From Vallitalea guaymasensis (GTDB lineage Bacteria; Bacillota; Clostridia; Lachnospirales; Vallitaleaceae): a stretch of DNA of 64,000 bases. A program made the position numbers and the translations under genes. The stretch is taken from NCBI RefSeq assembly GCF_018141425.1, contig NZ_CP058561.1, forward strand, positions 4,960,001 to 5,024,000. Reading direction: 5' to 3'. The notes under the pieces were generated by a model, which had not been told where the DNA came from, did not search any database, and was given only the letters and a program-made list of their open reading frames with translations. Shown in pieces: positions 4,940 to 26,912 of the stretch (positions within the stretch are counted from its first letter, which is position 1; each line of letters starts with the position of its first letter).

Positions 4940-4969
4940 ATTTTCTTATTTCTTCATAACTTTTTCATA

Positions 4970-4995
4970 TTGTTATTTTATAATTACAATAACAA
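4970..4995 (+). promoter_or_regulatory. Candidate promoter/operator of the DUF2680 gene
   Basis: TATAAT lies at 4979-4984, 33 bases ahead of the gene at 5017, but no convincing -35 is seen. An 8-bp inverted repeat, ttgttatt (4970-4977) and aataacaa (4988-4995), straddles the -10, as an operator would. Confidence 0.4.
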
Positions 4996-5016: not shown

Positions 5017-5475
5017 ATGAAAAAAACAAAATTAATCACATTCGGTTTGTTAGGATCACTATTAGTAGGAATGGCAGCATTTGCAGCTACTCCAGCACAA
5101 ATTTATTCAGAGCTTACTGGAGTGACAGAAGAAGAAGCTTATGAATTAAGACAAGAAGGTAAAACTTTCGGTGAATTAGCTAAGGAAAATGAAGTCTATG
5201 ATGAATTTGTAGAGAAGATGGTAGACGAAAAAACAGCCTTGATTGAAGAGAAAGTAGAGCAAGGTCAGTTAACTAGAGAAGAAGCTGACGAATTTATAGC
5301 AAATCTAAAAGAAAATGCTGGTAATTGTGATCCAAGTAATCCACAGAGATTAGGACAGAAAATTGGTCTAGGCCGTGGAATGGGAAATGGTCGAGGTGCA
5401 TGTAATGGTACTGGTAATGGCTATGGCAGAGGCAATGGCGGTAGAGGATTAGGCTATGGAAGAGGAGCTAAATAA
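5017..5475 (+). CDS. Secreted DUF2680-type protein with Gly/Arg-rich tail
   Basis: A 152-residue exported protein. The signal peptide covers residues 1-23 (cleavage after AFA). A helical DUF2680-like domain follows (about 26-98; ELTGVTEEEAYELRQEGKT, then LTREEADEFIANL). The tail (about 114-152) is almost entirely Gly, Arg, Asn and Tyr (GLGRGMGNGRG, GRGNGGRGLGYGRG), with Cys104 and Cys129 the only cysteines. DUF2680 proteins are clostridial, secreted and of unknown role. It is followed by its own terminator and then a two-component system whose sensor loop has a similar Gly/Met-rich stretch, so it may be a ligand reservoir or target of that system (inference). Strong AAAGGAGGA Shine-Dalgarno. 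Confidence 0.8.
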   Translation: MKKTKLITFGLLGSLLVGMAAFAATPAQIYSELTGVTEEEAYELRQEGKTFGELAKENEVYDEFVEKMVDEKTALIEEKVEQGQLTREEADEFIANLKENAGNCDPSNPQRLGQKIGLGRGMGNGRGACNGTGNGYGRGNGGRGLGYGRGAK

Positions 5476-5496: not shown

Positions 5497-5522
5497 AAAA
5501 AGCAGCTTATAGCTGCTTTTTT
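5497..5522 (+). terminator. Intrinsic terminator after the DUF2680 gene
   Basis: aaaaagcagct (5497-5507) pairs perfectly with agctgcttttt (5511-5521) around a TAT loop, and the 3' arm is itself the T-run. It can act in both directions. Confidence 0.9.
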
Positions 5523-5614: not shown

Positions 5615-6316
5615 ATGGAAGAAAAAATACTTGTTATAGATGATGAACATGGATTGTTGGAAGTAGTGGAAGCATATCTTAAAAAAGACGGTTATGAGGT
5701 TTTTACTGCTGATAATGGAAAAGAAGGATTATCCCTCTATAAAAATATAGCCCCGGATTTTATAATATTAGATTTGATGCTTCCTGATTTATCTGGTGAA
5801 AAGATTTGTGAAATAATAAGGGAAGAATCAGATGTACCTATACTAATGCTTACTGCAAAAAGTATGGAAGATGATAAAATAAGAGGGTTAGCACTTGGTG
5901 CAGATGATTACTTGACTAAGCCTTTCAGTCCTAGGGAATTGGTTATGAGGGTTAAGGCAATACTTAGACGTACTTATAAAAAAACTAATATTAATAATGA
6001 TAATATCATATCATTCAATAATAAAGATATAATAATTGATAAAGAAGAGCACATTGTTAAAAAAGCTGGAGATGTACTTAATATTACTCCTAATGAATAT
6101 GAAATACTATTACTTTTTGTTAGAAATCCAAACAAAGTTTTCACTAGATCTCAAATAATAGATGCAGCACTAGGTTATGAATTTGTAGGCTATGATAGAA
6201 CTATTGATGCACATATAAAAAACCTCCGTAAAAAACTGGAAGATGATATAAAAAAACCTGGATATCTTTTGACTGTTTATGGTGTAGGTTATAAGTTTAA
6301 AGGCAAACAGGACTAG
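5615..6316 (+). CDS. OmpR-family response regulator
   Basis: A 233-residue DNA-binding response regulator. The receiver domain (1-115) has the acidic pocket (DDE at 9-11), phospho-acceptor Asp53 (FIILDLMLPD), the LTAK switch threonine and Lys102 in DYLTKPF. The OmpR/PhoB winged helix occupies about 130-230 (NITPNEYEILLLF, TRSQIIDAALG, DRTIDAHIKNLRKKLE, LTVYGVGYKF). The gene ends 16 bases before the kinase gene, so the two form one operon. It most likely controls the DUF2680 gene upstream and possibly the NRPS gene that follows the kinase, but no repeat-type binding site was identified with certainty. Confidence 0.95.
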   Translation: MEEKILVIDDEHGLLEVVEAYLKKDGYEVFTADNGKEGLSLYKNIAPDFIILDLMLPDLSGEKICEIIREESDVPILMLTAKSMEDDKIRGLALGADDYLTKPFSPRELVMRVKAILRRTYKKTNINNDNIISFNNKDIIIDKEEHIVKKAGDVLNITPNEYEILLLFVRNPNKVFTRSQIIDAALGYEFVGYDRTIDAHIKNLRKKLEDDIKKPGYLLTVYGVGYKFKGKQD

Positions 6317-6332
6317 AAATGGGTGTGAGATA

Positions 6333-7703
6333 ATGATAAGTCTCAGTAAGAGAATAATGAAAAATTCTATAGTGATATCATTGATTACAGTAATAGTTAT
6401 TATCATATTATCTAATATTGGAATAAAATATTATTTTACTGATTACGTATTGGAGCAAAACAAAGTTGATAATGAAGAAATAATAACCTATGTTAATACT
6501 AGTATTGAGAATGATGGCATTATTGATAGTAGAGAGCTATCCTATCTGAAACAGCAAGCACATTTTAAGAATGTGGAGATTGTTTTGCAAGATATAGATA
6601 GGGAAGTTATATTTGTCAGCAGTATGGGAATGGGTAAAGGCATGGGAATGGGTAACGCTATGCATAAAGAGTCTTTTAAGGAAGACTATACCTATTTGGA
6701 GAAACAATTGAGTTATGAAGGTGAAACAATCGGATATCTCAGTATAGGCCATTATAAAAACATTATCACTGCAAAAGAAGATAATGATTTCATATATACG
6801 ATTAACATATTATATGTAATCTCATTTTTTATAGCTGTGCTGCTTGCTATTTTTTTAAGCTTATTACTTGTAAGAAGACTTACACGTCCTATTATTGAGA
6901 TAAAGGATAGCACCCATAATATATCAAAAGGCAATTATGAACGTGTAAAATCAATAAAAACTGATACAAAAGAATTAAACGAATTGGCAACTTCTATTGA
7001 AGAATTAGCAAGGCAACTCAGTGAACAAGAACAACTGAGAAAAAGACTGAGCAACGATATTTCCCATGAACTTAGAAGTCCTCTGGCAGTACTTAGGAGC
7101 CAAATAGAAGCATTGATGGATGGTGTTCTAGAGCCATCACCAGAGAGACTTGCCAAATTGAATGATGAGATTGTGAGAATGACCAAACTAATTAACGACC
7201 TCAATGAATTAGTGATAGTTGAGAGTGAGCACCTAAGACTTAATACCAGTAAGGTAAATCTTGAAAATGAGCTGTCAACTATAATTGAAGGATTCATACC
7301 ACTGATGGATAGTAAAGATATAAAGCTTATGGGTCAATTAGAAAAAGATATATTTATTAATGGAGATAGAGATAGATTGAAACAGATATTCGTAAATCTG
7401 CTAACCAATGCTTATAAATATACTAATAGGGGAGGCAGTATAAAAGTTACATTGACAAAAAGCACAGATGAAGCCATAATTAGATTTATTGATTCTGGTA
7501 TAGGAATCAGAAAAGAAGATTTAACATATGTATTTCAACGATTTTATAGAGGTGATGAATCAAGGAGTAGGAAGACAGGCGGTGCTGGTATAGGATTGTC
7601 CATAGTTAAGGAATTGGTGAAAGCACATGGAGGTATAATAACAGTTGACTCTGAACTTGGAAAAGGGTCTACATTTACTATAAAATTCAAGTTAGCCACT
7701 TAA
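6333..7703 (+). CDS. BaeS/PhoR-type sensor histidine kinase with Gly/Met-rich sensor loop
   Basis: A 456-residue membrane kinase. Helices at about 12-32 and 155-180 flank an extracytoplasmic domain of about 120 residues. HAMP follows (about 181-235; RRLTRPIIEIKDSTHNISKG), then HisKA with His245 in NDISHELRSPLAVL, and HATPase with N (FVNLLTNAYKYT), G1 (IDSGIGI), F (FQRFYRG) and G2 (GGAGIGLSIVKEL) boxes. The sensor domain has an unusual Met/Gly run at 98-110 (MGMGKGMGMGNAM). Met-rich extracellular stretches often bind soft metals, but that is inference. It is 16 bases from the response regulator and 33 bases ahead of the NRPS gene, with no terminator seen in either gap. Confidence 0.93.
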   Translation: MISLSKRIMKNSIVISLITVIVIIILSNIGIKYYFTDYVLEQNKVDNEEIITYVNTSIENDGIIDSRELSYLKQQAHFKNVEIVLQDIDREVIFVSSMGMGKGMGMGNAMHKESFKEDYTYLEKQLSYEGETIGYLSIGHYKNIITAKEDNDFIYTINILYVISFFIAVLLAIFLSLLLVRRLTRPIIEIKDSTHNISKGNYERVKSIKTDTKELNELATSIEELARQLSEQEQLRKRLSNDISHELRSPLAVLRSQIEALMDGVLEPSPERLAKLNDEIVRMTKLINDLNELVIVESEHLRLNTSKVNLENELSTIIEGFIPLMDSKDIKLMGQLEKDIFINGDRDRLKQIFVNLLTNAYKYTNRGGSIKVTLTKSTDEAIIRFIDSGIGIRKEDLTYVFQRFYRGDESRSRKTGGAGIGLSIVKELVKAHGGIITVDSELGKGSTFTIKFKLAT

Positions 7704-7736
7704 AATAATCTTAAGTAATGGGGGAAGAGTATAGAT

Positions 7737-10700
7737 ATGTATCCATTATCAAAAGGTAAAAAAGCTATGTGGGATATAGGAAAAATGTATAAATCCTGTA
7801 TTCCAAGTTTAATAATTGGGGAAATGATTTTCAAAGATAATAACATATCCATTGATAAACTGGATAGGGCTATAAATAAGCTGATTGAATCAGATGATAT
7901 CATAAGAACATCAATAATAGATGATGACAAAGAGACTATAGAACCTTTTTATTATCATAAGGTTAATATAATAGATTTAGTTGAGAAAGCAAATGAAGAA
8001 TCAGATAAGATAATACAGAATTACACACAAGAGAAAATAGAAAAGAATAAGCTGTATTCCTTTAGGATTGTTCTATATAACAATGGTAAAACTGGTATTA
8101 TTATAAAACTTCATCATATTATATCTGATGCTTGGACAATGGTACTGATAGGAAGTAGAATCAATTATTATTATAGAAATGATAAAACAACCACCCTGGA
8201 TAAAGGAATTTCTTATACAGAATATTTAACTAGAGATAATAGATACCTGATTTCTTATAGATATTTACAAGATGAAAATTATTGGAAAGATAAAATAAGT
8301 GATTTTGATGATTCAGCCATAAAATTAAATAATGACTGTATTGGTACAGTTGAAGATATAAAAGCCAGAAGAAAAAGTATTAAGATTAATGAAGAACATA
8401 TAAAACAATACTGTAAGAATAACTCTATAAGTTTGTTTGCATTTCATGTTGCTGTTCTAGCCATTTATATGGCAAGAATGAATCATAAGGATAAAGTAAT
8501 AATTGGTACACCAGTATTAGGCAGAGAAGGAAGAGAAAAATTTTCACTAGGTTACTATGTCAATATGGTTCCACTAAAAATCAATATCAACATGGAGTGG
8601 ACTTTCTATGAATTATTAAAGGAAGTCAAAAAAGAGATCTTCAATACACTCAAACATTCAAAGTATCCTTATATAAAGATACGTGAAGCCTTTACAGCTG
8701 AATTCGGAACCAACAAGAAAATTTTTGATACTGTATTATCTTATCAAAATGCTAAAAATGTTGATTATAAGGATTACAATACTAATTGGATATTCAATCA
8801 ATGTGCCATGGATGGATTAGAAATAAATATCAGCAATAGAGATAGTGAACCTAGCATTACATATGAAATAGACTATCAAATCAATAAATACACAGATAAC
8901 AATATTGACCAGATTCTTTCTCATATGGATGTTATTATTAAAGATGTTATAGGCAACCATAGTAAAAAACTGAGAGAATTAGATATAATGCCAGATAAAG
9001 AAAAAAACATTCTACTTAATGAATTCAATGATACAGAGACAGTGTATGATGATACAAAAGCACTCCATGAGTTGTTTTATGGACAGGTAAAAAAAATACC
9101 TAATAAGAATGCAGTAATATATAAAGAGGAATCTATGACCTATAGAGAGCTTAATGAAAAATCCAATTCATTAGCAAGCGTTCTACAGAATGAAGGTGTC
9201 AGAAGAAATACTATAGTAGGAGTTATTGCAGAGCCATCAATCGAAATGATTATAGGTATTCTTGCAATTTTAAAGGCTGGTGGAACCTATCTTCCACTAG
9301 ATATTAATCAGCCAGCAAATAGAATAATTGATACAATTAAAAATTGTAATGTAAATAAAATAATAGTTCATACAAAAAAAGATATAGCCGATATTTTGAA
9401 TGTTGTAGAACAGGTTATTCCAATAGCAGGACAGCTTAATAATTCAACTGATAATATAGATAACGTTAATGAAGTAGATGACTTGGCTTATATATTGCAT
9501 ACATCTGGTTCAACAGGTAGACCAAAAGGAATTATGACGACCCATAAAAATGTTGTGGGTTATGTAAATACATTACTAAAAGAAATTAATATAGAAGGTA
9601 AGGTTGTGCTTCAACAATCATCTTATACATTTGATCTATTTACTGAAGAAGTTTTTCCAACACTTGTTTCAGGTGGGACATTAGTGATTGTGGAACGAGA
9701 AACGGTTACTAACATTGAAAGGTTAATAAGTGTAATAAGGGATAATGAAGTACAAATTATCAGTAGTGTACCATCATTAGTAGCTATGCTCAATAAACAT
9801 ATGATTATTCCTGAATCCCTTGAAATCATTATTAGTGGGGGAGATGTACTTAAAAATAATCATGTTGATAATCTGATAAAAAAAGATATTGATATATATA
9901 ATTCCTATGGACCTACCGAAACAACAGTATGTGCTACCTATAACAAATGTAATAAGGGTAATGTTTCATTAATCGGTTCACCTATAAGTAATTATAAAGT
10001 TTATATCATGGATAGATATGAAAATTTAATGCCCATAGGATATGAAGGAGAAATAGTAATTGGTGGTATAGGTGTTTCTAAAGGTTATTATAATGATAGT
10101 AGTCTTACTGAAAAGAAATTCATCAAATCACCATTCAATGAAAGTGATATTCTATATAAATCAGGTGATAAAGGAAGATACCTCGTAGATGGTAATATAG
10201 AATATAAAGGGAGATTAGACCGTCAGGTTAAAATATTAGGAAACAGAATTGAATTGGATGAAATAGAAAACAAAATCAATCAAGTGACAGGGGTAAAAAG
10301 CAGTGTAATGACTTGCGTAAAAACGAAAGATACAAAGCAATTAGTTTGTTATTATATTTCATCAACAATAGAAGACAACACACTTAGAGACATACTTAAA
10401 AAATCATTACCAGCTTACATGATACCTAATCAGATAATTAGATTAGAGACATTTCCATTAACGGTGAATGGTAAAATAGATATGGAGAAACTAAATAAGA
10501 ATAAATCAACTAATAAGGTTTATGTTAAGCCAAAAACCAGTTTAGAGAAACAATTAGTATCTTTATATGAAAAAGTATTGAATATAAAAAGAGCAGGAGT
10601 GACTGATGATTTTTTTGAATTAGGTGGTGACTCTCTAAAAGCAATGGAATTAATTGTAGAAGCAGATAAATTAGGAATAGGATTAGAGATAAAAGATGTC

Positions 10701-11894
10701 TATAATTATCCTACCATAAGGAAAATTACTCAAAAAGATTCAGAATTGGATTTTTGGAAATATGAAAACACAATAGATATTATCCCCAATAAAATTAAAA
10801 GAAAGAAATCGGGAGATATATTAATTACAGGTGCAACAGGATGGTTAGGCATCCATATAGTAAATGATTTATTAAAAGAGACGAAAGATAATATATATTG
10901 TATTGTTCGAGGAAATAATACGGAAGAAAAAATGGAAAAGGTATTTGCTTACTATTTTCCAAATATGACACATGAAGAAAAACAAAGAATCAAGATTCTA
11001 AGAGGAGATATTACATTAGATAGACTAGGACTAAGTGACAAAGACTATAATATCATAAAAGATAAGATTAAAACGATTATCCATGCTGCAGCTTATGTTA
11101 AATATCATGGTAAATCAGATATCTTACGTAATATTAATGTAACAGGTACCCGAAATATCATTCACATGACAAAAATGCTGAATGCAGAACTTTATCATAT
11201 GTCTACAATATCTATAAGTGGTAAATATATGCTGCAACACCATAAGGTAAAAGGTAGCTTTACAGAGAAAGATTTGTATATAGGACAGCGTTTTTCTGAG
11301 AACGAGTATATATTTAGTAAGTTCCTTGCAGAGAGTGAAATCATAAAAGAGATAGAAAACGGATTAGATGCTTCTATCATGAGAGTAGGCAATCTGACTC
11401 AACGTACAAGTGATGGCAAATTTCAAAGGAATATAGAAGACAATGGATTCTATGGCAGACTAAGAGAATTACTCATATTGAAAAAGATGCCAAAGGAGTT
11501 ATTGAATCAAAAAGTTGAGATGACACCAGTTGACCAATGTAGTGATGCAATAGTTAAAATTATTAAGAGTGAACCAGAGTATACTGGAATCTATCACGTA
11601 TATAACCCTAATAAAGTTGGTGTTATATCTATTTTGCATATCATTGAAAAAATGGGGTATAAGATATTACCAGTATCTATGGATAATATTACTACTCTTA
11701 TATCTCATAGCAAAGAAAAGCTGAAACATTTATTAAGTATAAGGAATAAAAATGCACATGTCAGTAAAAATATAGCAGTTGATAATTATCTGACAACCAA
11801 TTATTTGGAGAATTTAGGATTTACTTGGGATAAGATAGATGAAGATTATTTGAGAGCATTCATTAAGAATATAGAACTAAGAGATAGTTTGTAG
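7737..11894 (+). CDS. Single-module NRPS with C-A-T-R architecture (reductive release)
   Basis: A 1385-residue nonribosomal peptide synthetase. The condensation domain (about 1-430) has His126-His127 and Asp131 in HHIISDA, with Ala for the usual Gly. The adenylation domain (about 445-890) has LHTSGSTGRPKG from 587, NSYGPTETT, YKSGDKGRY and NGKID. The carrier domain (about 930-1000) has Ser966 in FFELGGDSLKAM, the phosphopantetheine site. The terminal thioester reductase (about 1025-1385) has GATGWLG at 1032 and the Tyr1191-Lys1195 pair. It should join an acyl or aminoacyl donor to one amino acid and release an aldehyde or alcohol. By eye against GrsA the pocket reads D235 L236 E239 S278 I299 S301 S322 V330 C331; I do not assign a substrate. 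No partner NRPS, thioesterase or Sfp gene is visible. Probably cotranscribed with the kinase 33 bases upstream. Confidence 0.93.
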   Translation: MYPLSKGKKAMWDIGKMYKSCIPSLIIGEMIFKDNNISIDKLDRAINKLIESDDIIRTSIIDDDKETIEPFYYHKVNIIDLVEKANEESDKIIQNYTQEKIEKNKLYSFRIVLYNNGKTGIIIKLHHIISDAWTMVLIGSRINYYYRNDKTTTLDKGISYTEYLTRDNRYLISYRYLQDENYWKDKISDFDDSAIKLNNDCIGTVEDIKARRKSIKINEEHIKQYCKNNSISLFAFHVAVLAIYMARMNHKDKVIIGTPVLGREGREKFSLGYYVNMVPLKININMEWTFYELLKEVKKEIFNTLKHSKYPYIKIREAFTAEFGTNKKIFDTVLSYQNAKNVDYKDYNTNWIFNQCAMDGLEINISNRDSEPSITYEIDYQINKYTDNNIDQILSHMDVIIKDVIGNHSKKLRELDIMPDKEKNILLNEFNDTETVYDDTKALHELFYGQVKKIPNKNAVIYKEESMTYRELNEKSNSLASVLQNEGVRRNTIVGVIAEPSIEMIIGILAILKAGGTYLPLDINQPANRIIDTIKNCNVNKIIVHTKKDIADILNVVEQVIPIAGQLNNSTDNIDNVNEVDDLAYILHTSGSTGRPKGIMTTHKNVVGYVNTLLKEINIEGKVVLQQSSYTFDLFTEEVFPTLVSGGTLVIVERETVTNIERLISVIRDNEVQIISSVPSLVAMLNKHMIIPESLEIIISGGDVLKNNHVDNLIKKDIDIYNSYGPTETTVCATYNKCNKGNVSLIGSPISNYKVYIMDRYENLMPIGYEGEIVIGGIGVSKGYYNDSSLTEKKFIKSPFNESDILYKSGDKGRYLVDGNIEYKGRLDRQVKILGNRIELDEIENKINQVTGVKSSVMTCVKTKDTKQLVCYYISSTIEDNTLRDILKKSLPAYMIPNQIIRLETFPLTVNGKIDMEKLNKNKSTNKVYVKPKTSLEKQLVSLYEKVLNIKRAGVTDDFFELGGDSLKAMELIVEADKLGIGLEIKDVYNYPTIRKITQKDSELDFWKYENTIDIIPNKIKRKKSGDILITGATGWLGIHIVNDLLKETKDNIYCIVRGNNTEEKMEKVFAYYFPNMTHEEKQRIKILRGDITLDRLGLSDKDYNIIKDKIKTIIHAAAYVKYHGKSDILRNINVTGTRNIIHMTKMLNAELYHMSTISISGKYMLQHHKVKGSFTEKDLYIGQRFSENEYIFSKFLAESEIIKEIENGLDASIMRVGNLTQRTSDGKFQRNIEDNGFYGRLRELLILKKMPKELLNQKVEMTPVDQCSDAIVKIIKSEPEYTGIYHVYNPNKVGVISILHIIEKMGYKILPVSMDNITTLISHSKEKLKHLLSIRNKNAHVSKNIAVDNYLTTNYLENLGFTWDKIDEDYLRAFIKNIELRDSL

Positions 11895-11917: not shown

Positions 11918-12007
11918 GTGAGACAAATCCTATTATTGGAAGACGACGAAAGTATAGTGATGACTCTTCAAAACTATTCAGTATTGAAGAGTCATCTTAT
12001 AATATAG
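11918..12007 (+). pseudogene. Remnant of a response regulator gene (N-terminus only)
   Basis: GTG at 11918, with AGAAAGAG eight bases upstream, opens a 29-codon frame reading VRQILLLEDDESIVMTLQ and then unrelated residues to TAG at 12005. The first 17-18 residues are the beta1 strand and acidic pocket of an OmpR-type receiver domain (typical sequence ILLLEDDESIV). The receiver match is lost exactly where a 13-bp inverted repeat begins (11959-11971 with 11984-11996). No receiver or DNA-binding residues follow. I read it as a truncated relict of a regulator that once followed the NRPS gene; coincidental coding similarity of a terminator region is the alternative. Confidence 0.6.
11959..11996. 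terminator. 13-bp perfect inverted repeat between convergent NRPS and panD genes
   Basis: gatgactcttcaa (11959-11971) and ttgaagagtcatc (11984-11996) are exact reverse complements around a 12-base loop. Location between convergent genes suggests a bidirectional terminator, although neither side has a good T-tract. It overlaps the response regulator remnant. Confidence 0.6.
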
Positions 12008-16640: not shown

Positions 16641-18908
16641 GTGAAAAGATTGTTGTATACATATAAAAGAAAGAATAAGATGTATATTAAATTGTTGATG
16701 ATGATTGTATTTTCTATAATATTGGCTATAGTTTTGACTTCATCCATTTTGTATAAGAGCTATGAAAATTTTGGATTATCCATGATACATAAATATGAAA
16801 GTGATAAACTTGCTCAGACTACTTATAGTGCCACTTATATGAAGACATCAGCCAGTAGATTGGTTATGCAGTTGTATGTTAATAGAAATATAGAAAGATT
16901 CATGTACAATTATTCTGTAGACATGTTAGAGGTCAAGACCAGTATTGATGAATTGATCTCCTATAAAGCTACAGGACCTTTCATTCATTCCATTTATATA
17001 TATAATGGTAAGAATAATACTTTCTTGACTACTATATCATCTGAAGGAGTGGAGAATAATAACGATTTTTTTGATAAGGAATTAGTGGAAATTCTTAATA
17101 ATTATCAAGATTATAAAATTCTCTATCCAATACCTAGGAAAAGTCCTATGCCTTTAATGCCTGTAGATGAAAATCACTATTCAAATGTATATACATTCAT
17201 CTATTACACCAAACCAACAAATGATAAACCACTGAAATCTGCAATAATTGTAAACGTAACTGAAGAATGGTTACAAAATATGATTAAGACAATGGAGATT
17301 AATACAGATGGAGAGATATTTATTATCAATAATGAAGGTGTGGTTGTAACAGGGAATAATACATATTCTATGAAATCCAATATATCAGATAAAAGGTTTG
17401 TTCAAAAAATACTTAATTCAGATAAGGAAACAGGATATTTCTTAGATAAGGTAGATGGTAAAAAAAGTGTTATACATTATAATAAGTCCAATTCCCTTGA
17501 TTGGAAATTCATAAGTATCACTCCTTATAAAAGTATCAAATATAAAGTAAGTAAAATGAAATATTTAACCTTATTGGTTTGCATGTTCATACTAATTCTA
17601 GGTATAGCATGTTCAATTCTCATGTCACATAGGTTATGGAAGCCAATCAAAAAAATACTTAATAAGATGAACAAGTTGGAAAAACACAAAAGAGAGAGTA
17701 CATATGTGTTGAAAAACAGAATGCTGAAGGCTATGCTTCAAAATAAAAATAGTATCAGTATCGATAATCTGGACAAGCTATTCAATGATTTCAATATAAA
17801 ACTGAAACGTGAGACTCCTATAGCATTGATACTTTTCAAAATTGATGATTTCATTGAAATAAAAGATAAGTATAATTATAAGGATAGAGAAGTTCTGAAA
17901 TTCGCTATCATGAACATAGCATCAGAAATGTGTGGTCATAAATACAATCATGAGTGTATTAATCTAGAGGAAGATAATGTGGTATTGATTATGAATGTAG
18001 AAGAAAATCAGTTGTCTTTCTGGGTTAATGATATTAGAGAGATTATAGAAAAAGTGCAATCGGCTATGAATGAGTATTTTGAACTATCAATATCAGCAAC
18101 TATAAGTTCTGTATCAGATGAATTAAGTAATATCTATAATACGTATATAGATACTTTAAATAATTCTCAATATAGATTTTATTTCGGACATAGGAGCATT
18201 CTATATGAAGATGAATTAAAAGAATTAGAGGAAAAAGATTATGAATATCCTGTACAGAAAGAACAGCAGATGATTGATTCACTAATGCTTGGAAAGATAA
18301 AAGATGCCAAATTTTACTATGAGAAAATAATTAACGAGACATTAAATTATTCCTACTATTCTATGAATCAAGTACTTTTGCAAATGAGTCTAGCTATGAG
18401 TAAAGTATTTAATAGAATGGAGAAAAATTATCATTGTAAATTTCCTTTTAATTTTAATTCATTATTTACAGAAATAGGGCAGTTGGAAACAATAGAAAAG
18501 GTGAATATGAAATTCTTGGGCTTTTTTGATCAGATTGATGAGATAATAGAAGAGAATAAAAGCATAAAACATAATCAGTTAATTAATGAAATAATAGAAA
18601 TGATTAATGAAAATTATAAAGATATGAACTTATCTGTTGGCATAATAGCAGACAGATATAATATGACAGCTAATTACTTGAATAGGATTTTTAAAAAACA
18701 TACATCAGTATCTGTTTCACAATTCATTAATAGAACAAGGCTTACGAAAATCAAAGCTATGTTGGAAACAACATCAAAACCCATTAGTGAGATTGCTGAA
18801 GAATGTGGATTCTTGAACATCAGTTATTTTTATACATTATTCAAAAAAGAGTATGGTATTACAGCAAATGGTTACAGGATGAAAGCAAAACAAGAGTTGA
18901 ATAAATAA
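16641..18908 (+). CDS. Membrane-bound AraC-family sensor/regulator
   Basis: A 755-residue one-component regulator. There is a TM helix at about 14-36 and a large extracellular dCache-like sensor (about 37-305; VNVTEEWLQNMI, INTDGEIFIINNEGVVV). A second TM helix at about 307-330 is followed by a cytoplasmic linker of about 300 residues. The AraC DNA-binding domain is at about 655-750 (MNLSVGIIADRYNMTANYLN, PISEIAEECGFLNISYFYTL). It starts with GTG after AAAAGGTGG. Proteins of this design sit next to LplB/CarB/LplA transporters in Paenibacillus-like and clostridial genomes and activate them when the sensor sees the sugar. Here the importer begins 309 bases downstream. Confidence 0.9.
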   Translation: MKRLLYTYKRKNKMYIKLLMMIVFSIILAIVLTSSILYKSYENFGLSMIHKYESDKLAQTTYSATYMKTSASRLVMQLYVNRNIERFMYNYSVDMLEVKTSIDELISYKATGPFIHSIYIYNGKNNTFLTTISSEGVENNNDFFDKELVEILNNYQDYKILYPIPRKSPMPLMPVDENHYSNVYTFIYYTKPTNDKPLKSAIIVNVTEEWLQNMIKTMEINTDGEIFIINNEGVVVTGNNTYSMKSNISDKRFVQKILNSDKETGYFLDKVDGKKSVIHYNKSNSLDWKFISITPYKSIKYKVSKMKYLTLLVCMFILILGIACSILMSHRLWKPIKKILNKMNKLEKHKRESTYVLKNRMLKAMLQNKNSISIDNLDKLFNDFNIKLKRETPIALILFKIDDFIEIKDKYNYKDREVLKFAIMNIASEMCGHKYNHECINLEEDNVVLIMNVEENQLSFWVNDIREIIEKVQSAMNEYFELSISATISSVSDELSNIYNTYIDTLNNSQYRFYFGHRSILYEDELKELEEKDYEYPVQKEQQMIDSLMLGKIKDAKFYYEKIINETLNYSYYSMNQVLLQMSLAMSKVFNRMEKNYHCKFPFNFNSLFTEIGQLETIEKVNMKFLGFFDQIDEIIEENKSIKHNQLINEIIEMINENYKDMNLSVGIIADRYNMTANYLNRIFKKHTSVSVSQFINRTRLTKIKAMLETTSKPISEIAEECGFLNISYFYTLFKKEYGITANGYRMKAKQELNK

Positions 18909-18919
18909 AGGGTCAATAT

Positions 18920-18965
18920 AAGCATTATATAGTACAATTCTAACTTGTATATATAATGCTTTTCT
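18920..18965 (+). terminator. Terminator after the AraC-type gene
   Basis: aagcattatata (18920-18931) pairs with tatataatgctt (18950-18961). The inner bases continue the stem with one bulge (acaa/ttgt). A short T-rich tail (tttct) follows. Confidence 0.75.
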
Positions 18966-19217
18966 ATATGAAACTTATAAAAATGCATAATAGAGAAGAT
19001 GAAGTTACAGAGTATAAATACTATTTTATATTAGTTTTGGACGGCTATTAGTAGCTTTAGTTACCTATTTTAAATAGATTACAGGATTTTAAATAAGTAA
19101 GTTACACAATTTTGGAGTGGACACTTGATTTTATCATTTACAGGTTGAATATGAGAACTTATAGTGTTAATTACAAACACATGAAGCATTCAATTGACAA
19201 ATATAAGGAGGGAGTTA
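18966..19217. other. Control region ahead of the first sugar importer
   Basis: No gene is present in this stretch. It contains three AGTTAC words (19003, 19059, 19100) and a direct repeat attttaaata at 19067 and 19086, 19 bases apart. These are possible contact sites for the upstream AraC regulator. No clean -35/-10 pair could be fixed. Confidence 0.3.
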
Positions 19218-20171
19218 ATGGCGAATAGTATTTGTACTAAAAAAAGAAAAAAGATAAAAAGTAGCAGATCTAAAAGATTCAAAAAAAATTCTCCATTATT
19301 AATAATGTGTTTACCAGCAGTTGTTGCAATTTTTTTATTTAACTACTTGCCTATGATAGGTATTGTTATAGCTTTTAAAAAATTCAAACCTGCAAAGGGT
19401 ATATGGGGCAGCCCTTTTATTGGATTTGATAATTTCAAATTCTTCTTTACTTCTCAAGATGCTTGGAGAATAACTAGAAATACTGTAGGGTTGAATTTCT
19501 TATTTATCCTAGGATGCCTTATTATATCAGTAGCTTTTGCAATTATGTTAAATGAGATAACTAAAAGGGCATTCGTAAAGTTTTATCAGACAGTATTCTT
19601 CTTCCCATATTTTTTATCATGGGTAGTAGTTGGATTCATGTTATTTTCATTTTTAAACTCTAATCTAGGAATGCTTAATAATTTCTTAGGGATATTTGGG
19701 ATAGACCCAATCAACTGGTATAACAAACCCAGTTATTGGCCTGGCATACTGACTTTTTCTTTCCTATGGAAGAATGTTGGTTATTATAGCGTTATCTATT
19801 ATGCAGGAATTATGGGCATAAACCATGAGTATTACGAAGCGGCTGCTATAGATGGTGCAAATAGATTTCAGATGATAAGAAAAATTACATTACCTCTATT
19901 ATCCCCAGTAATAACTGTTATGGTATTGCTGCAGATAGGTAAGATCTTCTATGCAGATTTTGGTATGTTCTTCTTCTTGCCTAGAAACATAGGTACTCTC
20001 TATGCTACTACAGATGTTATTGATACTTATGTATATCGAGCACTTAGAGTTTCAGGTGATATAGGTATGGCTTCTGCTGTAGGGTTCTATCAATCTATTG
20101 TAGGTTTCTTACTAGTAGTTATAGCTAATTGGATGGTAAGGAAATTCAATGAAGATAATGCATTGTTTTAG
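19218..20171 (+). CDS. lplB: Sugar ABC transporter permease, LplB family
   Basis: A 317-residue inner-membrane permease with six predicted helices and a basic N-terminus. The coupling EAA loop is intact (EYYEAAAIDGANRFQMIRK, then ITLPLLSP), as is the LplB signature region FFTSQDAWRITRNTVGLNF. The ATG at 19218 follows AAGGAGGGA; an in-frame ATG 24 bases upstream lacks a ribosome site. It partners with the CarB-type permease 18 bases downstream and the LplA-type lipoprotein, forming an importer for oligosaccharides or complex sugars. No ATPase gene is present, as is usual for this class, which shares an MsmX-like ATPase. Confidence 0.93.
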   Translation: MANSICTKKRKKIKSSRSKRFKKNSPLLIMCLPAVVAIFLFNYLPMIGIVIAFKKFKPAKGIWGSPFIGFDNFKFFFTSQDAWRITRNTVGLNFLFILGCLIISVAFAIMLNEITKRAFVKFYQTVFFFPYFLSWVVVGFMLFSFLNSNLGMLNNFLGIFGIDPINWYNKPSYWPGILTFSFLWKNVGYYSVIYYAGIMGINHEYYEAAAIDGANRFQMIRKITLPLLSPVITVMVLLQIGKIFYADFGMFFFLPRNIGTLYATTDVIDTYVYRALRVSGDIGMASAVGFYQSIVGFLLVVIANWMVRKFNEDNALF

Positions 20172-20189
20172 ATAAGGAGGAACTTAGTA

Positions 20190-21080
20190 ATGATTGAGAA
20201 CAAAAGCTCACAATTAATATCAAAGATTATTATACATATCATTTTAATGATTTTCGCAATTTTATGCATTATCCCTATTATAGCAATTATTTCTATATCT
20301 TTATCAAATGAAACAGATATCGCATTAAAAGGTTATAGTTTAATTCCTAGGGGATTAACCACAAGGGCATACAGTATCATATTTAAGAATCCAAAACAAA
20401 TACTTAATTCTTATTTAGTTTCAATAACTATTACAGCAGTTGGAGGAGCATTAGGTTTATTGGTTACTTCGCTGATAGCTTATCCATTATCCAGAAAAGA
20501 TTTCATCTATAAAAAGAAGTTAACATTTTATGTGTTTTTTACCCTTCTTTTTAATGGAGGCTTAGTTCCTTGGTATATAGTCATCACAAGATATCTGCAT
20601 TTGCAGAATACCATTTGGGTATTGATATTACCTTATATAGCTATACCATGGTACATATTATTGCTTCGTACATATTTCAGTAAAATACCCAAGTCAATAA
20701 TTGAATCAGCTAAGATAGATGGCTCAAGTGAATTTGGAACGTTCTTCAAGATAGTTTTACCGTTGTCAAAACCTGCTCTTGCCACAATAGGGTTATTTAT
20801 TATACTTCATTATTGGAATGATTGGTGGTTAAGCTTGTTGTATATTGAAAAAGAAAAATTGATTCCACTACAATATATGCTTTACCGAATAATGAACAAC
20901 ATACAATTCTTGACAACACAAATGCAAACAGGTGCAGTTACAGTAAAAGTCGGTGACCTGCCCAACGAATCTGCTAGAATGGCAATGTGTATCATTGCAG
21001 CAGGACCAATGCTGTTTTTATTCCCATTCTTCCAAAAATATTTTGTCAAAGGATTAACTGTTGGAGCAGTTAAAGAATAA
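20190..21080 (+). CDS. Sugar ABC transporter permease, CarB/YtcP family
   Basis: A 296-residue permease, second half of the heterodimeric channel. It has six helices, LSNETDIALKGYSLIPRGLT after the first helix, the YVFFTLLFNGGLVPWYIV stretch, an EAA-type loop (SIIESAKIDGSSEFGTFFK, then IVLPLSKPAL) and the conserved end FPFFQKYFVKGLTVGAVKE. The Shine-Dalgarno AAGGAGG lies eight bases ahead. It is 18 bases after lplB and closely resembles the second CarB copy of this window at 33972. Confidence 0.93.
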   Translation: MIENKSSQLISKIIIHIILMIFAILCIIPIIAIISISLSNETDIALKGYSLIPRGLTTRAYSIIFKNPKQILNSYLVSITITAVGGALGLLVTSLIAYPLSRKDFIYKKKLTFYVFFTLLFNGGLVPWYIVITRYLHLQNTIWVLILPYIAIPWYILLLRTYFSKIPKSIIESAKIDGSSEFGTFFKIVLPLSKPALATIGLFIILHYWNDWWLSLLYIEKEKLIPLQYMLYRIMNNIQFLTTQMQTGAVTVKVGDLPNESARMAMCIIAAGPMLFLFPFFQKYFVKGLTVGAVKE

Positions 21081-21160
21081 GGTTATTAAATCTAGTTAAT
21101 CCATATGTTAGTTGGTTACTAGATATAATATATATAAACAATAAAAGAGGAGGAATTAAA

Positions 21161-22696
21161 ATGAGAAAAAGAATTTTTGTATTAGTGATTACAGTTTTAA
21201 TGATTACAAGTACTATGGTAGGGTGTGGAAATAAAGATAAAAAAGAAACATCTAATACCGAAAATGGTAATCAGCAAACAGCTGGTGAAAATGAACCAAA
21301 GAAAGAAAAAGAGTTAGAGTTTGTTGAACTATCATGGTATTACCCAGGTTCACCACAATCAGAACAAGATGTGGTATTTGCAGAAATAAATAAGCTTCTA
21401 AAAGAGAAAATTAATACAAAAGTTAATTTTCACCCTGTAGATTGGGGTAGCTTTGAAGAAAAGATGAAAGTCAAGATTGGTGCATCAGAAGAGTTTGATA
21501 TTTGTTTTACTGCCAATTGGATGAACAATTATCAAAAGAATGTTTCTCAAGAAGCATTTATAGCAATTGATGATCTATTGAATGAGTATGGTTCAAATAT
21601 CTTAAAAGGTATTCCAGAAAAATTCTGGGGTGCTACAAAAATAAAAGGTGAAATATATGGTATACCTAACTATCAAATATCAACTATGACTAATGGATTC
21701 TGGTTCAAAAAAGACTTGATTGACAAATATAAAGTTGATTACAAAGAATTGAATACTCTAGATAAATGGGAAGTATATCTTAAGACTATAAAAGAGAACG
21801 AACCACAGATAATTCCTACAGCTATATGTGCTGAGAGCGGAAGCAACTGGGGACGTATGCTTGTTAATTATGGATTTGATGAAGTTGGGGGACGTAATAT
21901 CCCTGGTGTTGTTCGTTTGACTGACAACTCCTATAAAGTTATTAATCAATTTGCTTCTGATGAATTTAAGAGCTTTGTTTCTAAAATGCATGATTGGTAT
22001 GAAAAAGGATATATACGTGATGATGCTCTAGCAATTCAAGATCCAAAGGGAGATATAGAAGCTGGTAAAATAGCAAGTGGCATGGGTGGAAACTATAAAC
22101 CAGGTGCAGATGCTGAGATGTCAGCATCATATGGTGAGGAATATGTTAATGTCAAGGCTTCTGAATCATATTTATTGACAAGTTCAATTATCGCTACTCT
22201 TAATGCAATTAGTAGAACTTCCAAGAATCCAGAAAGAGCAATGATGGTTCTTGACCTTATGAACAGTGACAAAGAAATATATAACATGTTATGTTATGGT
22301 ATTGAGGGAACACATTATAATAAAACAGGAGACAATTCTATTGAGATTGTTGAAGATAGCAAATATAAGCCTAATACAAATTGGATATTCGGAAATACAT
22401 TCAATGCATATCTTCTTCCAGGACAATCCCAACAGACTTTTGATGATACACAAGCTTTTAATATGAATTCTGAAGCATCACCTATCTTAGGATTCGTCTT
22501 CAATCAAGAGCCTGTAAGTATGCAGATTGCACAATGTACTACTGTAGTTGATGAATTCATATTGAGTCTTGATACTGGAACAGTTGTTCCTGATGAATAC
22601 TTACCAAAATTCTTGGATAAATTAGAAAAAGCAGGTTCACAAAAAATTATAGATGAGATGCAAAAACAAGTTGATGAGTGGCTTAAAACAAAATAA
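21161..22696 (+). CDS. lplA: Sugar-binding lipoprotein, LplA family
   Basis: A 511-residue extracellular solute-binding protein. The lipoprotein signal ends in the lipobox MVGC (Cys22), followed by a Lys/Glu-rich tether. The body starts at about 50 with LSWYYPGSPQSEQDVVF and includes FDICFTANWMNNYQ, GEIYGIPNYQ and PERAMMVLDLMNSDKEIYNM, which are LplA family features. Length is normal. It is anchored on the outer face of the membrane and delivers the substrate to the two upstream permeases. Its ligand is unknown; the GH2 enzyme downstream suggests a beta-linked oligosaccharide. Confidence 0.92.
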   Translation: MRKRIFVLVITVLMITSTMVGCGNKDKKETSNTENGNQQTAGENEPKKEKELEFVELSWYYPGSPQSEQDVVFAEINKLLKEKINTKVNFHPVDWGSFEEKMKVKIGASEEFDICFTANWMNNYQKNVSQEAFIAIDDLLNEYGSNILKGIPEKFWGATKIKGEIYGIPNYQISTMTNGFWFKKDLIDKYKVDYKELNTLDKWEVYLKTIKENEPQIIPTAICAESGSNWGRMLVNYGFDEVGGRNIPGVVRLTDNSYKVINQFASDEFKSFVSKMHDWYEKGYIRDDALAIQDPKGDIEAGKIASGMGGNYKPGADAEMSASYGEEYVNVKASESYLLTSSIIATLNAISRTSKNPERAMMVLDLMNSDKEIYNMLCYGIEGTHYNKTGDNSIEIVEDSKYKPNTNWIFGNTFNAYLLPGQSQQTFDDTQAFNMNSEASPILGFVFNQEPVSMQIAQCTTVVDEFILSLDTGTVVPDEYLPKFLDKLEKAGSQKIIDEMQKQVDEWLKTK

Positions 22697-22866
22697 TGAT
22701 TGTTGATATCAATAATTGAGACAGCATAATTAATGATATAAATATCATCAAAAGTGACAGTTATGATAATCAAGTAAATCATATGTACCAAAAAACATAA
22801 TAGTATTCTTCTTTTATATGAAGATACGGCTTATAATTGATATAGATTTTAGCTGTTATAGAGATG

Positions 22867-22915
22867 AAACAATAAGTATGCAGGTTATTAGTAACAAAAT
22901 GCATACTTATTGTTT
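22867..22915. terminator. 16-bp perfect hairpin between importer and GH2 gene
   Basis: aaacaataagtatgca (22867-22882) and tgcatacttattgttt (22900-22915) are perfect reverse complements around a 17-base loop. There is no strong T-tract after it (agttataac), so it may be a partial terminator, a processing/stability hairpin that lowers expression of the GH2 gene, or an operator. No gene is visible in 22697-22959. Confidence 0.6.
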
Positions 22916-22959
22916 AGTTATAACAATTAGTTTGATAGCTTAATAAGGAGTGATATGAC

Positions 22960-25900
22960 ATGAGAAAAAGAGAATGTTTGAGTGGTGAATGGCTCTTTCT
23001 ACCCGATTATGAGGGGATAGATAGTGGACAAGATAAGATTATGGTACCATCAACTTGGAGGTGGGTCATAAATGAAAAAGCCCAGTTTCAACCATATGAT
23101 ATGTTTGATTATCCCAGAGAATGGAATAAAGCACAGGCTGGTATAATTTCAAGGAAGATTGTAATTGATAGTGAAGATGACCATAGGGTATTTGCTATAT
23201 TTGAAGGTGTGTTTCAAAAATACATGGTCTTCATTAATGATATAAAAGTTCTAGAAACAGAAGAGAGTTTTTTAACAACTGAAATAGATATAACGGATTA
23301 TGTGATTAATGGTGAGGAAAATGAGATAAAAGTATGGTGTGGACCATATGATACCATTAATACAGAAACCGGACTTAAGAGATTATCACCTGATGGCACT
23401 TGGTATGCAAATATGGCTAGAGGAATATGGCAGAATGTTTATTTAGAATATAGACCGAATAAGTATATTGATGATGTGACTGTTAGCACTTCAACTAGAA
23501 ATAAGACTATTGACATAAAAGCCAATATTATAAATGAATATAATCAGACTATGAATATTATTGCAAAAGTTTACAAAGATGAGAAAGTAATCAAAGAATG
23601 GAAACTCAGTAATAATAGTGTTCATCTAGGTAATGTTGAATTTGCTACTCAAGAATTGTGGGAAGATGCAATATATTGGTCTCCAGAGAATCCACATTTA
23701 TATGTTCTGCAGGTAGATCTTACTTGTGATGGGAGGATTATTGATACATATGAAGTTCAGTTCGGATTTAGAGAAATATGGGCAGATGGACATAAACTAT
23801 ATCTTAATGGGAAAAGAATCAATCTTAGAGGAGATGCATGGCATTATCAAGGTTTTGTTCAACAAACTAAGGAGTATGTGAGAAACTGGTATAAAGCATG
23901 TAGAGAAACAGGAATAAATTTTGTTCGTCTTCATGGAATGCCTTATCCTAAGATATATTTGGATATAGCAGATGAGGAAGGTATGCTTATTATAGATGAA
24001 AGCGCTATTTATGGTTCAGCAAAAAGAATTCAAGCTAATCATCCACAGTTTATAAGTAACTGTAAAAATCACCTTATCAAATTGGTTAAGCGAGATAAGA
24101 ATCATCCAAGTGTCATTATATGGAGTATGCAGAATGAAATGAGGTGGGTAGACGGAAGAGATGGTTATAAACAAGCCATGAAGGATCTTTCTGCAACAAT
24201 AAAAGCTCTTGATTGTACAAGACCCATAGCTTACGATGGTGACAATCGTTTAGTTGATCCAGAAGATATGGAAATAGTTAGTATGCATTACAATATTGAT
24301 GGAACCATAAGTGATTGGGATAAAGAAAAACCACTTATTTTTGGTGAACATGGAAAGTGGCATTATGTTTCCCCACAGGTAAGTACAGCTATGAAAGGTT
24401 CTGATGTATACCTTTCTTTTGAAAAGAGTATTGAAAGTATTGGATTAGAGGAAAAGCATTTCATTGAGTATGCCAGAAGAGAAGAAGTAACAGGTATTTC
24501 ACCTTTTAACATGATTAACTACACTATGCATATGCAGCCTCAACAGGATATCATCATACCAGAATCAATGAACATAGAAGAAGTTAGACCAAAGGTTATT
24601 AAAGCTCATACAACTTCTATTAGTAATGGGTTTTTTGAAAAAGAACAGTTGTTTTATCCTAATTCCTCATGGAAACATCTTAAGGATGCTTTTAAACCAG
24701 TGGCGATAATTCCTAATGAATATAATCACTCATTCTATGATAATAGAAGCGTCAAGAGAAGTTTTAACATATATAATGATTGTGAAAATGACGTAGAAGC
24801 TAAGGTGAATTATAAGTTAACTACAAAAGATGGTGATATATTATTTGATAACGAATATATATTTAACCAGTCTGTAGGTGAAAAGCAGGAGTGGGAACTG
24901 ATATTAGACCTGCCAGCAGTATCAGAGAAAACAACATTAATCTTACAGCTGGAGCTTTATCATAATGATAGATGGATGAATCATTTGGAAGAAAAATATA
25001 AGGTATATCCATCTCTTTCCAAGATAGACCTCTTAGATATTAACTGTAAGAAAGTAGGATATCTTGGAAAAGAAGAAGGGTATAAAGCACTTGCTAAGCT
25101 AGTTGAAAAAGTAGAGATTATTGATGAATGTGTAAAAGAGAATATAGATAAATTAGACCTATTGATTATTGGCAATAACTGTACAAACAATGTAAGGAAG
25201 CTACAACCTGTTTTACAAGACTTTGTAAATGATGGGGGATATCTATTGATACTTGAACAAGAGAGTTTTGTACCAGGTGAAATTACACTTTCTGGTAAGA
25301 AATTCTTTAGTGCATTCATAAATGATGAAGGACATCCAGTTTTTGATGGTATAGAACAAGAAGATCTATTATTCTGGGGGTCTGAGAATGTCAATGATTC
25401 TAATTATACACCAGTAGTAACTAATGGATTTAACAAGCCTGTACAGGGTGATCTGAATATCCTTTTAGAATGTGGAGAAGGAGATTTCGGATGGGGCGGA
25501 TTATTGTGGTCACCTCTAGTTGAATATTCTGTAGGAAAAGGAAGAGTCATGCTTAGTCAGCTTAATATAATTAAGCAGTTTGAAGAGACACCACAAGCAG
25601 GTTTAATGTTAAGTAATATGATCAGATATGGTATTGATTTTGCAGATAAGAGACGATTCATTGAAGATAATGATAAACCTTTGACTGGTCTATTAGCTTC
25701 TAATGATTCAAAAAGCTGTAAATTCCTTGCTGATGTAGGAGTTGAATATGAAGTTGTATCTGCGATGGAAAGAATAGAAGATTATTCACAATTGATTGTT
25801 GATCTAAAAGGCTTAAAAGAAAAAGAAATCAATTCACTTACAGAGTATGCTAAACAAGGTGGAAAGCTATTGATTCTTCCTGTTGGAATAGATGAAAAAA

Positions 25901-26895
25901 ATAATCTGCAAGATATTCTTGGTAATGATGTGGAGATTGAAGCAAGACCTGTGTATCAATTAAAACCTGTTAGCAATAAGTTGACTAAGGGGATTTCTAA
26001 TTATGACCTATACCATTATGAAAAAGTCACTTATTCTCCTGGCGATAAAAATAATTTAATAATCTGTGATTATTCTATTTATAGTGAGGGTGGAATACCT
26101 TTTCTTGAAAGCATAAAGAATCCTTGGCATGAGTTCTTCGTTAATGGATTTGATGAAGAGTTCATGAAAATATCTATTGGTGATATAGTTGAAGAAACTG
26201 ATTTTGTAACTAATTCATATGGCATTATTCAAGATGTAGGTAAAGGACAAGCAGCTGTTATACAATTAAATATGATTGATAATAATGATAAGATCAAACG
26301 TATTTATTCAAGATTATTATCTAATCTTGGAGTTGAAATAGATACAACAATATTGACTTATGAAAAAGAAGAAAAAGATTATGGTATACAGTCAGTCATG
26401 GCATTACCTAAAGAAAAGCATCAAGATTATAATGAGATGGTGAAATATTTCAGTGATAAAGATTATCTGCTCAACAACTTAGGTGAAGGGGTATACGGAT
26501 GGATGAAGAGGATTGAGAAAAAAGATGGTTTCATCAGTATATCCAATAGTACTGGAAAGACCTATTTTATAACCTTATTCATTGAATCCAATATTAATCG
26601 TGATCCTGAAAAGAGAGGGAATGGTGAACTGCCAGATAGCAGTATTGTGCCTGATCTTTATGTAGATACCAACTGTTCATTCAAACTTTTTGTTAATGGT
26701 AAAAGTTATGACAATCCAATAGTAGAAGAAGATACGAATTCCATTAAAATAGATGATGTAGTACTTGATAAAGGAATAAATAGAATGTGTATGATATGTA
26801 AAAGTGAAGACAATGATATAAAATTCAATATATGTTTCAAAAACAAGTATGGTGATTATATGAATGGTTTAAAATATTTACTTACACTAGATTGA
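22960..26895 (+). CDS. Long GH2-type glycoside hydrolase with C-terminal GATase-like domains
   Basis: A 1311-residue cytoplasmic enzyme (no signal peptide). Residues 1-185 form a sugar-binding jelly roll (LSGEWLFLPDYEG) and about 190-275 an immunoglobulin-like domain. About 280-520 is the GH2 TIM barrel, with general acid/base Glu393 in WSMQNEMRW and nucleophile Glu463 in LIFGEHGKWHY; their spacing of 70 is close to that in LacZ. The remaining 700 residues are unusual. They contain two GATase-1/trimerisation-like folds (LDLLIIGNNC...DGGYLLILEQ and KEKEINSLTEYAKQGGKLLIL) and a C-terminal beta domain. The substrate cannot be told from sequence: beta-galactoside, beta-glucuronide or beta-mannoside are all possible. 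It probably hydrolyses what the upstream importer brings in. Confidence 0.88.
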   Translation: MRKRECLSGEWLFLPDYEGIDSGQDKIMVPSTWRWVINEKAQFQPYDMFDYPREWNKAQAGIISRKIVIDSEDDHRVFAIFEGVFQKYMVFINDIKVLETEESFLTTEIDITDYVINGEENEIKVWCGPYDTINTETGLKRLSPDGTWYANMARGIWQNVYLEYRPNKYIDDVTVSTSTRNKTIDIKANIINEYNQTMNIIAKVYKDEKVIKEWKLSNNSVHLGNVEFATQELWEDAIYWSPENPHLYVLQVDLTCDGRIIDTYEVQFGFREIWADGHKLYLNGKRINLRGDAWHYQGFVQQTKEYVRNWYKACRETGINFVRLHGMPYPKIYLDIADEEGMLIIDESAIYGSAKRIQANHPQFISNCKNHLIKLVKRDKNHPSVIIWSMQNEMRWVDGRDGYKQAMKDLSATIKALDCTRPIAYDGDNRLVDPEDMEIVSMHYNIDGTISDWDKEKPLIFGEHGKWHYVSPQVSTAMKGSDVYLSFEKSIESIGLEEKHFIEYARREEVTGISPFNMINYTMHMQPQQDIIIPESMNIEEVRPKVIKAHTTSISNGFFEKEQLFYPNSSWKHLKDAFKPVAIIPNEYNHSFYDNRSVKRSFNIYNDCENDVEAKVNYKLTTKDGDILFDNEYIFNQSVGEKQEWELILDLPAVSEKTTLILQLELYHNDRWMNHLEEKYKVYPSLSKIDLLDINCKKVGYLGKEEGYKALAKLVEKVEIIDECVKENIDKLDLLIIGNNCTNNVRKLQPVLQDFVNDGGYLLILEQESFVPGEITLSGKKFFSAFINDEGHPVFDGIEQEDLLFWGSENVNDSNYTPVVTNGFNKPVQGDLNILLECGEGDFGWGGLLWSPLVEYSVGKGRVMLSQLNIIKQFEETPQAGLMLSNMIRYGIDFADKRRFIEDNDKPLTGLLASNDSKSCKFLADVGVEYEVVSAMERIEDYSQLIVDLKGLKEKEINSLTEYAKQGGKLLILPVGIDEKNNLQDILGNDVEIEARPVYQLKPVSNKLTKGISNYDLYHYEKVTYSPGDKNNLIICDYSIYSEGGIPFLESIKNPWHEFFVNGFDEEFMKISIGDIVEETDFVTNSYGIIQDVGKGQAAVIQLNMIDNNDKIKRIYSRLLSNLGVEIDTTILTYEKEEKDYGIQSVMALPKEKHQDYNEMVKYFSDKDYLLNNLGEGVYGWMKRIEKKDGFISISNSTGKTYFITLFIESNINRDPEKRGNGELPDSSIVPDLYVDTNCSFKLFVNGKSYDNPIVEEDTNSIKIDDVVLDKGINRMCMICKSEDNDIKFNICFKNKYGDYMNGLKYLLTLD

Positions 26896-26912
26896 TTAAG
26901 GGGAAGAAGTAC

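Follow-up and report, generated by a model that had tools for sequence, protein, structure and literature searches.

A candidate acyl-lysine NRPS with reductive release behind a two-component system in Vallitalea

A stretch of 64,000 nucleotides (the window; G000:C1:4960001-5024000) out of a 5.63-Mb Vallitalea genome carries a response regulator (RR), a membrane histidine kinase (HK) and a one-module NRPS in direct succession. The reading that we prefer, with a rough probability of 0.55, is that this NRPS makes an acyl-lysine product by reductive release and has been placed under a pre-existing envelope- or metal-stress sensor operon. In such a system, a DUF2680-like protein, the OmpR-type RR and the membrane HK would form the older stress operon, driving itself through a direct-repeat operator, and the NRPS would have become the last gene of this operon in part of the genus. 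The A domain would load lysine (ornithine being less likely) onto the single carrier domain, the starter-type C domain would N-acylate the loaded amino acid, using an acyl group that another part of the cell provides, and with NAD(P)H the R domain would release N-acyl-lysinal or, following another round of reduction, the alcohol; firing of the sensor would thus switch production on. A small NRPS under a two-component sensor is attractive in that it offers one enzyme, one predicted product class and one operator-like site.

The three genes are intact and all lie on the + strand with intergenic gaps of 16 and 33 nt (Table 1), confirming the order and spacing given in an earlier note on this DNA. 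That note had seen no terminator, and indeed no terminator-like site was found between RR, HK and NRPS, which supports an operon-like unit; a good ribosome-binding site precedes the NRPS start at 7737. Three parts had been missed, i.e., the upstream DUF2680-like gene as a member of the unit, the hairpin that follows it, and the stub of a second response regulator (RR2) behind the NRPS. The DUF2680-like protein scores 19.9 bits against a Pfam gathering score of 25, below the cut-off.

Table 1. Features of the locus in the window and, in the last two rows, of the NRPS-kinase cassettes of other Clostridia
Feature	Position	Strand	Basis or remark
Putative RR operator TTCATAACTTTTTCATA	4953..4969	+	two TTCATA half-sites, 11 bp spacing
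Putative -10 box TATAAT	4979..4984	+	9 nt past the direct repeat; sequence
DUF2680-like secreted protein, 152 aa, Gly/Asn-rich tail	5017..5475	+	weak Pfam match, position
Hairpin with T-run, terminator or attenuator	5497..5521		between DUF2680-like gene and RR
OmpR/PhoB-family response regulator (RR)	5615..6316	+	Pfam, NCBIfam
Membrane histidine kinase (HK), BaeS/WalK-like core, extracellular mixed alpha/beta sensor	6333..7703	+	
HK Met-rich extracellular loop MGMGKGMGMGNAMH	6624..6665	+	character kept in six orthologues
One-module NRPS, C-A-T-R, 1385 aa	7737..11894	+	
C domain, HHIISDA active site, starter-type clade	7740..9014	+	Pfam, trees
A domain, pocket code DLESIGSVCK (Lys-like)	9084..10496	+	
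T domain, LGGDSL	10551..10730	+	Pfam
R domain, SDR type, TGATGWLG and YIFSK	10818..11876	+	
Second response regulator (RR2) stub, first 12 codons	11918..11953	+	likeness to G003 RR2
Perfect 12-bp inverted repeat, terminator-like	11960..11995		common to G005
Class cassette loci (G728, G591, G426, G745, G545, G694, G646, G677, G455, G551)	L156-L165		
Further cassette loci	L072, L074, L076, L012/L089		multi-TM HAMP histidine kinase of one family

The RR consists of Response_reg and Trans_reg_C domains and the HK of HAMP, HisKA and HATPase_c domains (Pfam), i.e., the receiver plus winged-helix regulator and the HAMP-HisKA-HATPase kinase of an OmpR/PhoB-type two-component system. In this respect, and in the CusS and WalK matches to its core fold, the pair resembles BaeSR/CusS-type systems, and the domain and family comparison upholds the previous description of an envelope-type kinase. 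The best NCBIfam kinase score is for BaeS (255 vs. a cut-off of 500), the heavy-metal family TIGR01386 (CusS/CzcS) gives 181.3 vs. 292.55, and the HK stays under every curated cut-off among the matches listed, which sets it apart from those systems, as does its gene partner, the DUF2680-like protein. A structure model of the HK (mean pLDDT 77, pTM 0.39) shows an extracellular helix and a small sheet, with the Met-rich loop disordered (pLDDT <50, residues 99-112), and its fold matches cover mostly the catalytic core. Nine distant relatives of the kinase were examined for their neighbours, and four have genes for a copper P-type ATPase or an HMA-domain chaperone beside them, although these copper-neighbour kinases are just 29-38% identical to the window HK, mostly across the shared core. 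Based on the Met-rich loop and these copper genes, a metal (Cu/Ag-like) or envelope/membrane-stress stimulus is plausible.

Upstream of the DUF2680-like gene, CTTCATAACTTTTTCATA is found in the same letters in all six Vallitalea genomes. The spacing of the repeat and the placement of the -10 box (Table 1) are the geometry of PhoB/OmpR-type activator sites and of PhoB class-II promoters. The exact site has a single intergenic copy genome-wide, the other zero-mismatch match lying inside the NRPS coding sequence, and a wider regulon was rejected, with 19 one-mismatch matches vs. 11 for a reversed-pattern control and thus no clear excess. The natural reading of these counts is that the RR would drive mainly its own operon through the putative operator, and little else. 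Hairpins occur at the same position between the DUF2680-like gene and the RR in most of the other Vallitalea genomes, as read from the alignment. Because this hairpin separates the operator-driven gene from the RR, transcription of the NRPS may depend on read-through or on a different promoter, and the natural reading is that RR, HK and NRPS would all be reached by read-through or from a weak second start. A separate NRPS promoter at 7452 was rejected: the best promoter-like match near the HK 3′ end (7452-7480, 11 of 12 positions) is shared by the NRPS-less G005 and absent from G003, which bears the enzyme.

The history of the locus was followed in six Vallitalea genomes, i.e., the window genome G000 and G001-G005. 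The DUF2680-like gene, RR and HK occur as a unit in all six, with the DUF2680-like gene immediately before the RR, and the HK of the other five is 93, 78, 77, 68 and 65% identical to that of the window. An intact NRPS, however, follows the HK in only two of them, G000 and G003, and is absent there in the other four. Judged from this distribution, the HK is older than the NRPS and is not dedicated to it. The idea that the NRPS is hard-wired to its own sensor kinase was thus abandoned, since the supposed dedicated sensor is also present in NRPS-less genomes. The distribution also bears on a closed autoinducer circuit, in which the NRPS product is the signal sensed by the adjacent HK: such a circuit fits poorly with an HK kept in six genomes and accompanied by an intact NRPS in two, and with G005, in which a 93% identical HK has no NRPS at the locus.

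In G003 the order RR-HK-NRPS recurs, with NRPSs that are 61% identical and that start, in G000 and G003, 25-33 nt behind the HK among the same neighbours. This recurrence makes chance adjacency unlikely, and as far as the gene arrangement can tell, coupling of the NRPS to the sensor is likely. Sibling genomes that naturally carry or lack the NRPS provide a tractable comparison. A contig scan with the single NRPS protein as query found no relative.

Downstream of the NRPS, G003 has a further 2 kb and then RR2, a second kinase (HK2), an ABC ATPase and an 809-aa permease, the last named by inspection. In the window the RR2-HK2-ABC part is gone, and the RR2 stub is 86% identical at the DNA level to the start of the G003 RR2 (L061:14697-14731). 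The closest relative, G005, retains the leader of the NRPS, ribosome-binding site included, and then a stub that matches the 3′-terminal part of the permease (exporter) gene of G003; the 12-bp inverted repeat of the window comes next. In G001 an R-domain stub lies ~7.6 kb from the HK. The region downstream of the HK thus forms a loss series (L062, L061, L060, L057), in which the island is whole in G003 and cut back in the window, G005 and G001. As these remnants show, the lineages of G000, G005, G003 and G001 formerly had parts of a larger island, which then disappeared bit by bit. Loss of the NRPS in relatives suggests that its product would be dispensable.

The stubs in G005 and G001 and the deletion in the window also suit a different view, namely that a biosynthetic island is decaying and carries the NRPS along as a passenger, that the NRPS lies beside the HK without functional consequence, and that it is expressed alone if at all. 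The faster evolution of the NRPS points the same way (pairwise dN/dS 0.17, compared with 0.07 for the HK, with dS near saturation). However, the NRPS value shows purifying selection in two species, every catalytic motif is kept, and the neighbours and the short distance to the HK are the same in both, so that we regard a mere passenger as unlikely. A plasmid-borne origin was rejected as well, plasmid NRPSs being only 26-30% identical among the matches listed.

The Pfam domains of the NRPS are Condensation (residues 2-426), AMP-binding (450-785), PP-binding (939-998) and NAD_binding_4 (1030-1272), and the catalytic motifs HHIISDA, LGGDSL, TGATGWLG and YIFSK are all intact, in line with the one-module C-A-T-R architecture first noted. 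In two trees the C domain falls inside the starter-position clade (support 100/99), where its companions are further one-module C-A-T-R proteins (98 and 91/91); internal C domains and those of the A-T-C-A-T-R (AusA-like) type branch elsewhere, which answers the question of starter vs. internal clade that the earlier note had posed. The C domain is therefore predicted to be of the starter (acylating) type and to accept an acyl group, a subtype assigned by position rather than with NaPDoS references. The motif is HHxxxDA in 14 of the 16 one-module NRPSs of this group, against HHxxxDG in the domains included in that tree for comparison; in the window, the HHxxxDA variant is located at 8112-8132.

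The A-domain pocket was read with a GrsA guide, which returned its known code, DAWTIAAICK, and gave DLESIGSVCK for the window and DVESIGTVCK for G003. The nearest published signature checked is the BacB-M1-Lys signature of bacitracin, DAESIGSV (PMC3207962, Table 2), which the window code matches at seven of eight positions. The specificity check suggested earlier thus yields a Lys-like code, and the substrate is predicted to be a basic amino acid, lysine with ornithine less likely, bearing in mind that pocket codes sometimes mispredict basic residues. The C-terminal SDR-type R domain contains both TGxxGxxG and YxxxK, in agreement with the reductive release originally proposed, and is nearest by sequence to the solved R-domain structures of AusA and of 6vtj, from an archaeal NRPS. 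The product would then be N-acyl-lysinal, predicted to carry a fatty acyl group, or its alcohol. Neither an acyl ligase or other acyl-activating enzyme nor a carrier protein or thioesterase was found among the neighbouring genes. The earlier remark that no Sfp is nearby is true locally but loses its force genome-wide, as three ACPS-family PPTase loci are located elsewhere.

The window NRPS shares with AusA and the dipeptide-aldehyde NRPSs of gut clostridia a C-A-T-R terminal half (NF047350 aligns over 36-1379) and a related R domain. In contrast to their A-T-C-A-T-R plan, it has a single module, scores 700.9 vs. an NF047350 cut-off of 2500, and has a C domain in a separate supported clade; its sequence places it outside the AusA/gut dipeptide-aldehyde family. 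Vallitalea is not, to our knowledge, known as a gut genus. In actinobacterial isonitrile-lipopeptide clusters, ScoA and MmaA are one-module C-A-T-R lysine NRPSs that combine N-acylation with reductive release, and isonitrile formation needs a TauD-family oxygenase. Compared by architecture and description, the window NRPS resembles ScoA and MmaA in its one-module C-A-T-R plan and Lys code, but it lacks their FadD-type ligase, ACP, thioesterase and isonitrile oxygenase, and it is tied to a two-component system.

This likeness raises the alternative of a metallophore pathway similar to the lysine-based isonitrile lipopeptides (chalkophores) and switched by a copper sensor. The isonitrile lipopeptides are lysine-cored and bind copper (PMC9600254), and the HK is possibly copper-responsive. 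However, the acyl ligase, carrier protein and thioesterase are absent nearby and no TauD-family oxygenase was found in the whole genome; the isonitrile chalkophore was judged unlikely for the latter reason, and we give the metallophore alternative very little credence. The earlier statement that no described cluster matches accordingly stands in part: one-module lysine R-domain NRPSs are known (ScoA/MmaA) and C-A-T-R genes occur elsewhere in Clostridia, whereas the rest of the isonitrile pathway is absent here. The Vallitalea combination is new; its component parts are known. The G228 and G195 clusters of related Clostridia have the same domain order, with an HHxxxDA-type C domain in G228, but they carry their own acyl-loading genes (acyl ligase, ACP and Sfp) and no kinase. 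At L073:4523-11138 and L075:3-5523, in an arrangement other than that of the NRPS-kinase cassettes, a C-A-T-R NRPS is accompanied by an acyl-CoA ligase-like gene, a stand-alone ACP and an Sfp-type PPTase, with the kinase absent.

In 14 other Clostridia genomes, cousins of the NRPS lie directly before a multi-TM membrane HK, with a HAMP domain, of one family, which is not the family of the Vallitalea HK. Four of these (G034, G063, G218 and G052) are the only ones with the full-length cassette kinase among 392 genomes of the order, and the kinase follows the NRPS at once; in G052 a thioesterase-like end replaces R, as read from the sequence, and the R domain was not found. Ten more full-length kinases occur among 391 genomes of the class, each directly behind an NRPS R end (10 of 10). 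Nine of these contigs carry the complete C-A-T-R protein, the tenth stretch ending inside the A domain, and stop codons occur within the kinase match of G551. The gaps between NRPS and kinase range from -47 to 126 nt, and most loci continue with a gene for an HD-GYP response regulator. With a kinase profile built from the NRPS-linked kinases, matches covering the catalytic core alone are mostly not NRPS-linked, suggesting that the link to the NRPS goes with the sensor part of the kinase. The A pocket codes differ among the cassette NRPSs, and we take them to be Asn-like, Gly-like, Thr-like and others; such diversity would be expected for a signal family and equally for any NRPS family.

Rpf/DSF systems show a similar order of synthase, sensor and HD-GYP regulator. 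The cassettes are thus what speaks most for the autoinducer circuit, but with the Vallitalea HK belonging to another family we hold that circuit to be distinctly improbable in the window. A broader proposal can be made, though only tentatively: one-module starter-C C-A-T-R NRPSs could be signal synthases whose N-acyl amino aldehydes are read by a cognate membrane kinase, acting in most Clostridia via an HD-GYP (c-di-GMP) response regulator, and in Vallitalea an enzyme of this type would be coupled to a stress kinase that is both older and different. A literature search for NRPSs paired with HD-GYP proteins or kinases found no description, and a search for C-A-T-R aldehydes in clostridia and for Vallitalea NRPSs found nothing on point. 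The repeated pairing of NRPS and kinase may point to a form of chemical signalling not yet described, and if the enzyme-kinase-regulator cassette, widespread in Clostridia, is such a system, anaerobes would have a small-molecule language that is new.

An HtrA-like trypsin/PDZ serine protease gene is divergent from the cassette at two loci (L159:13172-14302 and L162:14439-15566), and similar-looking genes, judged by sequence only, are seen in L163-L165. An acyl amino aldehyde could inhibit the neighbouring HtrA-like protease.

Beyond the NRPS of the window, panD, panC, panB and coaBC were considered as members of the unit and rejected; they lie on the opposite strand and recur nearby in NRPS-less Vallitalea. 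Between coaBC and the gene at 27796 there is a region with an AraC-type regulator and sugar-ABC genes (16641-27566). The likely G005 orthologue of the gene at 27796 (L060:12559) directly follows coaBC, and the sugar region is probably an inserted or translocated island.
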